From Antedon mediterranea (taxonomy: Eukaryota; Echinodermata; Crinoidea; Comatulida; Antedonidae), in assembly GCF_964355755.1 (NCBI RefSeq), contig NC_092675.1:3754312-3818311 (forward strand): a DNA stretch of 64,000 nucleotides. Direction: 5' to 3'. A model generated the notes under the pieces. The model made no database searches, was not told the origin of the DNA, and saw nothing but the letters and a program-made list of their open reading frames with translations. Within the stretch, counting starts at the first letter, position 1. Each line of letters opens with the position of its first letter. Shown in pieces: positions 20,784 to 26,373 of this stretch. The position numbers and the translations under genes are program-made.

Positions 20784-21625
20784 ACTTTTTGAAACATTTT
20801 TGTGTACGAAAAAAAAAACGTCTCGTGGATGAAAAAAAATCTAGTACACAAATTATCCTATATGATATGGCTATGTACTGTGAAATACAACAGTGCCACC
20901 TGTCGTCTGGTCTCAGTTTCATTTGTAAACACCACCGCGAGATATGAAACAGCAGCAGATATTTGTGTACGATTTGGACATTATGTACTAATTTCATTCA
21001 AAAAGGCATTTAAATTAGCTTTAGATCGTTTTTAGGATTTTGATTAATTAATGGGGACATCCCTACAAGACGTGGAATTGTTGGAAAAACCATAATTAGC
21101 TTAGATAAGTTCCAATTGTCTGTCGAAGTTTTGCCTTTCAGCCAAGCTAGTACTAGGCTACTAGACCTAGCCTAGGCCATGCTAGTATTTAGGCTAGGCC
21201 TAGCCTAGGCGTTTTAGCCTTGCTAGGCCTAGGATTGTTTGGTCGTTTGTTGACATAATTAACACAAAAGTAGGTGTGTTTACGAAATCCATATAAATAT
21301 AACATTTAATATAACATTATTAAAAACCAAATGTTACTGTTTTTAATCAATGTGTGTGAATGAAATGTAGTAAGCTTTGGCTAGGGTAGGGCTACCTTTT
21401 ATTTGATTCAAATAACTAGAATTTATTTAGATGTTATATAAAACAAATAATGAATGTTTTGTATTCGTGTAATGGTACAAATAATGGCATTTGGTGAATG
21501 ATGAAAGGTTATATCAACTCGGCTTTGCCTCGTTGATATAACCTTTCATCATTCACCTCGTGCCATTATTTGTACCATTACACTCATAAACATTCATTAT
21601 TTGTATAATATTGTCATTCAATACA
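20770..21625 (+). repeat. Repeat D, copy 2, ending in a long hairpin
   Basis: Colinear with 9160-9760 but with insertions. It ends in a strong hairpin: arms 21467-21518 and 21532-21583 are complementary except for about four central positions, around a 13-nt loop. Complementarity continues outward through AAATAATGAATGTTT to roughly 21436-21613. Inside lies a dense run of AGGCCT/CCTAGG palindromes (21150-21235). Confidence 0.75.
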
Positions 21626-22009
21626 ACATGTTAGTTTAAAATGGTTGCAACTACTATTTTGGTACTGTGAACTTTGACCTCATATTCTAATATACCTCGG
21701 TATTTAATAAGTCTAGAGCGTTTTGGGAAAATATAATCCATTATTAAATGATAATCTATTTCAATCATAGCATGATATTTATTTGCTAATCAATAACCGT
21801 GAACATGGGCATAAATTGATTTGTTCTACAGATACATATCAGTCAGCAAACTATTTATAGTTCCCCAGCACGTCACGCATCGGGATAAGATCATTGTGGA
21901 GATCTATTGTTGAAATTCACTAAATTTTGAAAATTCTTGATAACGAGAATGAATTGTGTCGACCAACGATAATTCTAATGCTTGCATGCAGTGGCGGATC
22001 TAGGATACA

Positions 22010-22105: not shown

Positions 22106-23925
22106 TATGCCATATGTAGTGTATGGAGTCGAGTTTGCTTAAAAAATGTATAACATTTACAAGGTTTTAAATATCTAATTTAATATCAAAACAATCAATT
22201 TGTTTAAAGGTTTTTGTTAAGATAACGCAACAATCATAAAGTTACTGCGAAGATGATTTTAAACAACAACATGTAAAAACAATGCATTACTAGAGAATCG
22301 CTGTACAAAATAAACGCGCACGCGTAGAGTGTGCATGGAGAGCGCACAGCCAGGGCCGTTAAATTTAAATGGATTAAAGTTATAAAGCCCTAATTACGGC
22401 GTTATAACGCCGTATTATTATAAAATAATTTTTTTTTCTTTGGCGGAAATCAGCCACCGTGTAGCAATGACCACTATATAGACCGGCAGCCAAGCGCATT
22501 TCGATCAAGCGACAAGGTACCAATATCCGAGTACAGGAATATTTATTACGTAACACAATATATCAATATATGGACGTCTGCCGGAGTCCCCCTGCTGGGT
22601 GTGGCCCCTGGAGCACCAAATAAGGGTCAGAAAAATGGGCTAGATCATGTTTTGGAGATACCACATAAAAGCAACTTAGAATTAACAAACATACTCTACT
22701 AACTATAAAAAGTGCATTGCCAGATAACTTATCCGCCGTATATGTCCCGCCAGACACCCCCGAAAGTTTCCCCCTGTGTTACACTGTAATATAATTGGGC
22801 AAAAATAAATATGTAAAGTATCACATAAAACTAAGTTTAAATGACTAGGTACATTTAACAGAGTACAGAATGACCCCTGCCAGACAAATTATCCACTGTA
22901 TTAGTCCCGCCACACACGCCCTTAGGGGTCACTAAATTTGGGCTAGATCATGTTTTGGAGATACCAAATAAAATCAACTTAGAATTAACAAACATATACT
23001 CTACTAAGTATAAAAAGTACATTGCCAGACAAATTATCCGCAGTAATGTCCTTCCAGACACCCCCGAAAGTTTCCCCCTGTTAACACCGTGATATAATTG
23101 GGCCAAAATAAATATGGAAAGTACCACATGAAACCAAGTTTAGATGACTAGATACATTTAACAGAGTACAGAATGACCGCTGCCAGACAAATTATCAACT
23201 GTATTAGCCCCGCCAGACACACCCAAAGGGGTCCTAAATTTGGGCTAGATCAGGTAACGGAGATACCTACAAACAAACACACTCTATTCTAAACACACTA
23301 GTATTTAGCCAAATTATTTGCATGATCTGCACGAGGCCTTCATAACACCCCCCTCCCTACATCCATAACAAAGGGGTCCCCAGATTTGGGCTAGATCAAA
23401 CATTGGATACAACATAAAATCATCTTAAAATTAACAAACAAAGTATAAAAAGTATTTTGCCCGACACACCCACTGTATGACCTGTCATAGGCCTATACAG
23501 TATTTACAAAATGTTTTCCCCGTGAACATTGTGATAAATTGGCCTAAAATACAGTACATGAACCATGTTTAAAATGAAATGATTACGGTAGGTACCTACA
23601 TTCACAAAGCAAGCAATAACGCAATGACCCTGTCAAATGTTAATATTATGCGTAAAGGCCGGCCAGCGGCAAATCGTAGGATAATTATACATAATAAATC
23701 AAAATACATTCATTCAAGATTGGACTGGATTAAAAGTTTCTTTCATTATAAATAAAAGTAAATTATTTTGGAAATGGAGGGCCATAGATTTTACATGAGT
23801 GAGTAAAGTCGCTATTAAAATGTCTTCATGATTATTGATATTAATGTAAATTCTCTGTTTCACTTTCTGAATCATCTGAATCATCACTCCAAGCAATTTC
23901 GAAAGATGAATCATCATCGTCATAC

Positions 23926-24726
23926 TCAGCAGCGTAAATTCTCTGTTTCACTTTCTGAATCATCTGAATCATCACTCCAAGCAATTTCGAAAGATGAATC
24001 GTCATCATCATCGTCATACTCAGCAGCAACATCTGGCTGGACACTCTGGATATTCACTGTAACATCTTCCTCTTCGTGAAAAAAAGAATCTGGCATTGCA
24101 TGTCCCAAATACCAGTCAGGAATATAGCATCCGTTGCTTTCCTTCCATCCGTAATTGAGAGGATCCAAGCCATGTCCTGAATGTGCAGAGTTGGCATTTC
24201 CCCACAGAATGCTGATAAAATGTGCCTCTTGCAATTTGTTATGCAAGGTGTTCGCACAAGGCGGTAGAAGTGCACAGTCCACTTTCTTCACGTTGGACAT
24301 TGGGTTCTCCTAAAACAAATTAAGATAATATAGATGATTAGTTATCAATGTGTTAAATTCATTTTAAATCTTGTTCAATACTGGTAATAATATTTTTAAT
24401 TAATGCTACTTTGTGTTAATCATCCACAGACAAGAACACTTATAATGAAATACAGTATTGTAGTTTAGGTTGCTGTTATGGATTCATTATTTTCCTTTTT
24501 ATGAAATGTGATGATATAGTACCTATAGTATCCATTCTCCCTGTCATCTGACACAGTTTATGAACCTGGCATCATTGACATCTTTGACATCACCCTTTAA
24601 GCCATACATGGAACAGACAAACTCTTCTGCTATTCTCTGGTCTGGTTCATCGTCAGAAGCCAGTCTACTAAAGAATTCAATCAATGTTCCTTCTGTGTCT
24701 TTTACAATTACTTCAAAGGGCTTCAA
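23926..24726 (-). pseudogene. 'LPPC'-domain multicopy protein, two-exon remnant
   Basis: Two coding blocks lie on the minus strand. Block one (24544-24726 and a little upstream) contains EEFVCSMYGLKGDVKDVNDA. Block two follows an AG acceptor (TTGTTTTAG, exon from 24310) and contains VDCALLPPCANTLHNKL, ISILWGNA and NYGWKES, then an acidic, serine-rich tail. From memory, this order (an F-V-C-x-LYG segment, then LPPC, then W and GW motifs) is typical of uncharacterised proteins found in many copies in aquatic invertebrate and fish genomes. I cannot give it a function. The donor of block one is not obvious. An 88-bp tandem duplication (23846-23933 and 23934-24027) lies in the tail; because 88 is not a multiple of three it shifts the frame and a stop follows. 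A broken copy carried by the surrounding element is the simplest reading. Confidence 0.5.
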
Positions 24727-24894
24727 TTTTCGTTTCCTTTTCGATCAAAGTTTATTATTAGTTTGTCGAAAAAGATCCGTACAGTATTTAGGAAGGATTT
24801 ATTTAAATTTACATTATGTAATATTTGTTATGAAGTGTGATGGAAACAGTTTCTCTAGCCTATTAAACAGTGTGTAAGCATCTATTTTTCAAAA

Positions 24895-24990
24895 CATTTT
24901 CGGAGCCAAACCCTCCCCCGCTCGGTGCTACGCACCTCATTTGCCACTTTCGTGGCCACCCCCCCTCGTCAGATCCTAGATCCGCCACTG
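24895..24990 (-). mobile_element. hAT-type terminus inside the foldback core
   Basis: The segment ends in ATCCTAGATCCGCCACTG, the exact complement of CAGTGGCGGATCTAGGAT at 21989-22006. This is a widespread hAT-type terminal sequence. The 8 bp flanking the two termini do not match, so they need not belong to one insertion. Confidence 0.5.
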
Positions 24991-26373
24991 ACAGTTACAA
25001 TTAACACAGTGTATAATGTCCTTATCAAACCTTAATATAAAAGTATAGTATAGTCCTATCCTTTTTTTCAGTTATCCTACATTATTTCAAATTAATTACG
25101 CTCTCTCGGTATCAATGACAACCACAGTGAAGTGCCAGTACCGATATAAGCCTATATCGGATCATTTTACCCCAGGCTTTACTCACCTAAGCTATACTGT
25201 GAGGTTATTGGCTAGAATTGAACCAGGCCGTCTGTAGACGAAACCGGGGACGAAACACAAACTCAGCTCATGTTCTACAGTTAGTAAAGTGTTTAGTTTG
25301 ATTACAAATACTTATTGTCATCAAGATACCCCTACTTCTTTGATCTTGACGCCGCATATTTATTGTTGAATAGTATCTTAAATAAGGGTCGACTTTTCGG
25401 GGGTGTCTGGCGGGACATATACAGCGGATAATTTGTCTGGCAATGCACTTTTTATACTTAGTAGAGTATGTTTGTTAATTCTAAGGCGTGTCTGGCGGGG
25501 CTAATACAGTGGATAATTTGTCTGGCAGGGGTCATTCTGTACTCTGTTAAATGTACCTAGTCATTTAAACTTGGTTTCATGTGGTACTTTCCATATTTAT
25601 TTTGGCCCAATTATATCACGGTGTTAACAGGGGGAAACTTTCGGGGGTGTCTGGCGGGACATATACGGCGGATAATTTGTCTGGCAATGCACTTTTTATA
25701 GTTAGTAGAGTATGTTTGTTAATTCTATGTTGATTTTATTTGGTATCTCCAAAACATGATCTAGCCCAAATTTAGGACCCCTTAGGGCGTGTCTGGCGGG
25801 GCTAATACAGTTGATAATTTTTCTGGCAGGGGTCATTCTGTACTCTGTTAAATGTACCTAGTCATTTAAACTTGGTTTCATGTGGTACTTTCCATATTTA
25901 TTTTGGCCCAATTATATCACGGTGTTAACAGGGGGAAACTTTCTGGGGTGTCTGGCGGGACATATACGGCGGATAATTTGTCTGGCAATGTACTTTTTAC
26001 ACTTAGTAGAGTATGTTTGTTAATTCTAAGTTGATTTTATTTGGTATCTTCAAAACATGATCTAGCCCAAATTTAGTGACCCTTTTTGGGCGTGTCTGGC
26101 GGGGCTAATACAGTGGATAATTTGTCTGGCAATCCACTTTTTATACTTAGTAGAGTATGTTTGTTAATTCTAAGTTGCTTTTATGTGGTATCCCCAAAAC
26201 ATGATCTAGCCCATTTTTCTGACCCTTAATTGGTGCTCCAGGGGCCACACCCAGCAGGGGGACCCGGCAGACGTCCATATATTGATATATTGTGTTACGT
26301 AATAAATATTCCTGTACTCGGATATTGGTACCTTGTTCGCTTGATCGAAATGCGCTTGGCTGCCGGTCTATAT

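Follow-up and report, generated by a model that had tools for sequence, protein, structure and literature searches.

INTRODUCTION

Academ DNA transposons carry a Cys8 zinc finger, and the nuclease domain of AcademX is of the XPG type; elements of the P superfamily generate target duplications of 7-8 bp. In the available text of PMC10045372, AcademX elements have 3-4-bp target duplications and a nuclease, and AcademH elements have 9-10-bp target duplications and a helicase. Academ elements are 5-8 kb long; the curated consensus sequences from bivalves average 5565 bp (PMC10294476, in excerpt). No report of foldback-type arms in Academ was found in the literature searched, an incomplete set with few subscription papers, and no paper in this same set used 'Academ' together with 'XPG'.

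Long inverted arms with internal tandem repeats are known from Foldback and Galileo. The arm repeats of Galileo carry multiple THAP sites, according to the accessible part of PMC3688188. As far as the excerpts of PMC4079207 and PMC3169594 describe them, Foldback (FB), Tetris and Mutator-type foldback elements share their foldback architecture and their non-autonomous derivatives with the locus described here; the likeness is one of form only.

Here, we analyse a foldback element within a stretch of 64,000 nucleotides from the crinoid Antedon mediterranea (the window, meaning the whole stretch of DNA at its full length), together with its relatives across the genome. The comparisons indicate that the window element is likely a non-autonomous, internally deleted copy of an AcademX-like (nuclease-bearing Academ) DNA transposon.

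RESULTS

Extent and arms of the window element

The outermost bases of the element are 22479 and 26370, where it begins with the tip TAGACCGGCAGCC and ends with its mirror image; in the comparison of tips, that of the window copy is TAGACCGGCAGCCAAGCG. An earlier note on this DNA had placed the element at 22476-26373. The element is present there, and the extra three bases on each side are flanking DNA that is complementary by chance. The same note had described nearly identical inverted arms of about 900 bp: the inverted arms were confirmed, with 95.8% identity over 770 aligned columns and 16 internal gap events in a global alignment, but their lengths are unequal (~790 versus ~980 bp). The arms pair perfectly over 37 bp at the ends and then in blocks further inward, for example one of 222 nt that is 94% complementary and one of 180 nt that is 93% complementary. 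Two occurrences of the 22-bp tip were counted in the window, versus 0 in 100 shuffles.

Tandem subunits of ~300 bp, also anticipated, were recovered in both arms (Table 1), and the Foldback-type arm form, i.e. long inverted arms with internal tandem repeats, was thereby upheld. Each ~302-bp arm unit consists of two diverged half-units of ~142-160 bp; in repeat family D1, the successive half-unit spacings are 85, 159, 142, 159 and 144.

Table 1. Coordinates of the parts of the window element and its immediate flanks.
Feature	Position	Strand	Description
Flanks	22476..22478; 26371-26373	.	ATA left of tip; TAT right of the other tip; 3-bp direct repeat absent
Left arm	22479..23267	+	starts with tip TAGACCGGCAGCC; end sequence of ~145 bp outside the tandem array, followed by ~2.1 units of ~303 bp in tandem
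Tandem units, left arm	22636-23267		303 bp x 2.1
Core between arms	23268..25394	.	degenerate arm pieces near 23370-23455
88-bp tandem duplication in acidic tail	23846..24016	-	within the core
LPPC exon, 127 codons	23926..24309	-	C-terminus of transposon protein, including the acidic tail; TTTTAG acceptor upstream of the exon; matches the L006 and L008 proteins
Upstream exon, 66 codons	24544..24744	-	matches the part of the transposon protein directly before the LPPC part
Nested interspersed repeat, ~253 bp	24738..24990	.	marks the inner boundary of the surviving coding sequence; at least 39 other genomic places
Right arm	25395..26370	-	inverted copy of the left arm, with about one half-unit extra
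Tandem units, right arm	25485-26131		301 bp x 2.1

The core carries the end of a transposon protein

The exons inside the core, which encode an LPPC motif, had been read as host-type gene cargo. They match the ends of long transposon ORFs, namely residues 1426-1529 of the L006 ORF (1.1e-08) and the end of the L008 ORF (1.3e-16), and the host-cargo explanation was therefore rejected. By these alignments, the supposed host gene is the tail end of the element's own transposon protein. The companion claim, that no transposase is recognisable, holds in that the window copy has none entire; it overlooked a C-terminal stub, which was mistaken for the host-type cargo. Coding sequence upstream of roughly the last 200 codons has been lost from the window copy. 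The LPPC exon has at least 117 matches across the genome, with 150 of 185 candidates scored.

The first five relatives to be fetched have ORFs of 1555 codons (L006 and L007), 1547 codons (L010), 865 codons (L008) and 664 codons (L009), and all five have a PPC or PPT motif near the ORF end. L006 and L007 are the same family at two places, and the two arms of L007 are 97.1% alike over 873 columns. The second set comprised the eight best remaining LPPC matches (L011-L018). Among them, L011 and L012 contain near-complete coding chains inside inverted arms, and L016 contains a broken coding chain, with arms undetected. The other five (L013, L014, L015, L017 and L018) have only ~113-189 C-terminal residues between inverted repeats, the same C-terminus-only state as the window copy; in L014 and L018, the inverted repeats overlap the C-terminal fragment by ~10 bases.

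Further ORF loci are L024 (1396 codons), L025 (1360 codons), L026 (1524 codons), L027 (1247 codons) and L028, where the ORF is in pieces. Overall, inverted arms surround the coding part at 8 of the 13 long-coding loci (L006, L007, L010, L011, L012, L024, L170 and L025, the last with weak arms of 101 bp at 82%). No arms were seen in the fetched stretches of L008, L016, L026, L027 and L028, some of which are possibly too short. Elsewhere in the genome, a ~1,550-codon ORF is thus found between long inverted arms, which are built from ~145/290-bp tandem units.

Common tips and 3-bp target duplications

The window tip TAGACCGGCAGCC is common to L011 and L167-L169, whose tip is TAGACCGGCAGCCCAGAG. 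L012 and L170 have two different ends, TAGACCAGGAGCCCAGAG and TAGAGCAGGAGCCCAGAG, the tip of L006 and L007 is TAGTCTGGGAGCCCAGAA, and that of L015 is TAGACCGGGCGCCCGGAA. The common pattern across the nine relatives with both tips located is TAG[AT]C..GCCC. Within these nine, to which the count is confined, a perfect 3-bp target duplication is present in eight (L007, L011, L012, L015 and L167-L170) and there is none in L006. The window copy has no 3-bp target duplication; a 4-bp ATAT is possible only if its tip is one base shorter, and ATAT is its own complement and hence ambiguous. Across the 10 elements checked, there was no target duplication longer than 3 bp.

Allowing up to one mismatch, the tip pattern occurs at 158 places in the genome versus 0 for a reversed control. 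Exact tips occur at 86 places, and neighbours less than 9 kb apart face each other in 21 of 22 pairs, with 15 of the 21 facing pairs measuring 5.3-5.8 kb. The common tips and the 3-bp duplications, together with the arms around long ORFs, bear out at the family level the proposal of a mobile element with Foldback-like arms.

Domains of the ~1,550-codon protein and its classification

From its sequence, the protein looks to begin with a Cys/His-rich part at the N-terminus and to continue through a DUF6589-like core and then a FEN1/XPG-like region to the LPPC C-terminus. The Pfam family DUF6589 matches the core in six of seven members (best 2.2e-08) and exceeds the curated cut-off in L024 and L027; the whole-protein matches of L006, L008 and L010 are under the curated cut-off, and L025, L026 and L012 have no Pfam match at the cut-offs used. 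The core is presumed to be a DDE transposase. It had 0 matches in the PDB, and no paper naming DUF6589 was found in the literature searched, which was incomplete.

In the region before the LPPC part, exactly seven columns are acidic in all eight aligned proteins. Archaeal FEN1, represented by 40 proteins picked at random from 99 extracted, has eight all-acidic columns, seven of which have the same order and a similar spacing as those of the transposon protein. Pfam XPG_I was found at six genome places, none of them at transposon-protein loci, and no XPG families were listed up to E 10 for the five A1 members scanned. A profile search of the PDB with the nuclease-like region yielded five PDB sequences at E up to 10; four of them are EXO1, with a best value of 0.22, and an unrelated ribosomal protein came first at 0.087. 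A profile from fewer sequences gave a similar outcome. An hhalign comparison with FEN1 was weak: P is 0.02, compared with 0.62 when the core region is used, and the aligned part is chiefly the last motif, with most of the acids unaligned. Because the Pfam, PDB and hhalign support is weak or negative, the region is called FEN1/XPG-like by residue pattern only. Further, PF03638 scores 16.7 bits in L027, under its cut-off of 23.5, marking a weak CXC-like cysteine cluster; by eye, cysteine clusters are visible in L010 and L026, and none is visible in the L006 C-terminus.

These features fit Academ, a name that we use provisionally because the likeness to AcademX rests on described features and not on sequence. 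The same kind of transposon could belong to another or an undescribed superfamily, as the Pfam family matched by its core has no known function and the Academ literature searched is thin; that assignment is nonetheless unlikely, given that the weak CXC-like cysteine cluster of L027 agrees with the Academ Cys8 motif and that the nuclease-like region, the 3-bp duplications and the single long ORF all agree with the description of AcademX. According to the available text of PMC10045372, AcademX is alike in its nuclease-type second activity (here a residue pattern only), its 3-4-bp duplications and its long single ORF. It is unlike the relatives of the window element in that these have arms of ~0.7-1.55 kb made of tandem half-units.

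Excess of transposase 3′ ends and palindromic derivatives

The representation of different parts of the protein was compared using three equal 77-residue queries from L008. The N-terminal query had 30 matches, the core query 52 and the C-terminal query at least 150 (with 150 of 359 candidates scored); after merging at 10 kb, the N-terminal query has 27 loci, the core query 39 and the C-terminal query at least 112. Among the C-terminal matches scored (150), 20 pairs face outward at a distance of ~0.9-1.0 kb, and none faces inward. Four such loci (L020-L023) were read entire; each is a palindrome in which both arms carry an LPPC-type part at their inner end.

Such an over-representation of the C-terminus is what a selected fragment might produce, acting for example as a repressor of the KP kind or as an auxiliary DNA-binding piece. 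The substitution ratios do not support it, making a selected product very unlikely: the palindromic copies differ by 9 synonymous, 28 non-synonymous and 1 stop change, a ratio of 0.92 with no sign of purifying selection (23 distinct sequences, from 32 of equal length among 40 found), and dN/dS among L013-L018 ranges from 0.27 to 1.69 in 7 of 10 pairs and is undefined in the other 3. The 3′-end excess is instead read as a by-product of derivative formation.

The palindromic elements as a whole (L020-L023 and L147-L161) carry an LPPT-type transposase 3′ end that points outward on either side.

Copies of the window element in the genome

The earlier note had looked to a second copy of the terminal 160 bp to separate a transposon from a local inverted duplication. 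The 354-Mb genome has no other full copy of the terminal 161 bp, where the only matches besides the element itself are two 103-bp stretches at 78% on C4, 32 kb apart; yet a local inverted duplication does not follow, because the very tip is common to other elements. With one arm unit as the query, a single further piece of 101 bp was found, on C3, and the core DNA, used in the same way (40 of 159 candidates scored), matched itself and the nested repeat and, weakly, the arms of the element.

It is extremely improbable that the element is an inverted local duplication of host DNA with no history of transposition: the window tip is common to dispersed elements having 3-bp duplications, the arms show the tandem design of the relatives, and the core is transposon coding sequence, even though the window copy is the single full copy and has no clean target duplication, two points that favour such a duplication and make movement of this particular copy presumptive.

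The two matches on C4 belong to a segmental duplication (L001 at C4:13077500 and L002 at C4:13109500), 97.7% alike over 7.8 kb, that contains an exon for a P-transposase HTH and an isolated tip of the window type. L001 is tied to the window element by the 103-bp end only. A coding stretch in L001 had appeared family-like by eye, on the strength of a motif; it had no match at E 1 or below, and no claim is based on it.

Comparison with Galileo and the P superfamily

Membership in the Galileo/P superfamily, as first suggested for this element, was rejected from the distances of P-transposase loci to the 100 listed tips. The P transposase PF21787 occurs at 35 places, or 33 loci, and 0 of these 33 are within 8 kb of 100 listed tips; for the DUF6589/XPG-like protein, 8 of the 39 loci of its core and 10 of the 27 loci of its N-terminal part are this near, as are 0.42% of random positions. 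These counts are lower bounds, covering 100 of the 158 tips and some tip variants only, such that a P element with other tips would escape them.

It is hardly credible that the window element is a Galileo-like member of the P superfamily moved by a THAP/P transposase, since its coding relic is a different, non-P protein, the duplications are 3 bp and not 7-8 bp as in P, and the opposite tip was not seen in L001 and L004, even though L001 has a P-type HTH (PF12017, 2.4e-06) at a distance of ~5 kb from its solitary related tip and a degenerate piece of PF21787 lies ~14 kb away from the tip of L002. What speaks for Galileo is form, its hallmark being arms of 0.5-1.2 kb with tandem repeats (PMC3688188, in part). 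In the same partial text, Galileo is alike in having long inverted arms with internal repeats, in which conservation is mostly limited to the tips and which may form transposase-site arrays, and unlike in its protein family, tip sequence and target size.

Arm identity and insertion age

The low divergence between the arms of the window element had been taken to imply recent movement. Three facing tip pairs were fetched, L167 (C4:16924765), L168 (C5:3295622) and L169 (C6:301064). L167 and L168 agree at 98-99% along most of their length, whereas the two arms within a copy are only 92.2% (L167) and 94.3% (L168) alike; in L169, the outer 1.2 kb of the arms are 96.3% alike. Because L167 and L168 are recent and their arms do not reflect it, arm identity is unsafe as a clock for the window copy; dating by arm identity was dropped, and such identity cannot stand for insertion age. 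The outer 767 bp of the L167 arm are 92% identical to the right arm of the protein-bearing L011, and it is plausible from this resemblance that L011 or a close relative supplied the transposase for L167-type copies.

L167-L169 form a foldback family of high copy number, whose ~1.55-kb arms are related to the L011 arms. Their core contains a GIY-YIG-like ORF (22.5 bits versus a Pfam cut-off of 22.6), presumably Penelope-like, and L169 has an additional nested reverse-transcriptase ORF. Retroelement cargo appears to have been captured here and then amplified within a DNA transposon.

DISCUSSION

The ~1,550-codon protein is probably the transposase. Supplied by a fuller relative, it would bind the tips and the repeated arm sites, on the model of the THAP sites of Galileo, pair the ends and move copies in trans by cut and paste to 3-bp targets, and its nuclease-like part may trim a strand, the ends or a flap. 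The window copy would now be immobile or rarely mobile.

In the arms, an offset of 140-170 bp is among the six best in 14 of the 16 loci scanned, which are those with direct repeats already seen; it is weak in L025, L010 shows twice 75, and it is absent in L020 and L027. The window arms share no detected arm sequence with the arms of most families, and the spacing is kept nonetheless. Because the offset recurs in so many loci, the kept half-unit spacing suggests a spacing constraint, for example a nucleosome-sized phasing of putative transposase sites. More tentatively, and with the odds against it, an Academ-like lineage could have independently built Galileo-like arms from ~141-167-bp half-units and could also give rise to palindromes with a transposase 3′ end in either half.

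The multicopy 'LPPC' protein, seemingly a repeated host gene, is here re-filed as a protein of a transposon lineage, and similar unnamed proteins of other animals may be mis-annotated likewise. Further, this one genome holds foldback arms, long-ORF relatives, near-identical mobile copies and 3-bp targets, and the question of why some transposons grow long repetitive arms therefore becomes testable.

Two smaller repeats accompany the element. The ~253-bp repeat nested in the core terminates in AGTGGCGGATCTAGGA, read on the opposite strand, which we take to resemble a hAT-type tip; AGTGGCGGATCTAGGA also occurs alone outside the element, at 21988-22005 (~21990). About 0.9 kb to the left of the element, at 21501-21549, lies an inverted repeat of 18 bp, ATGAAAGGTTATATCAAC / GTTGATATAACCTTTCAT, whose two halves match perfectly around a 13-base loop.
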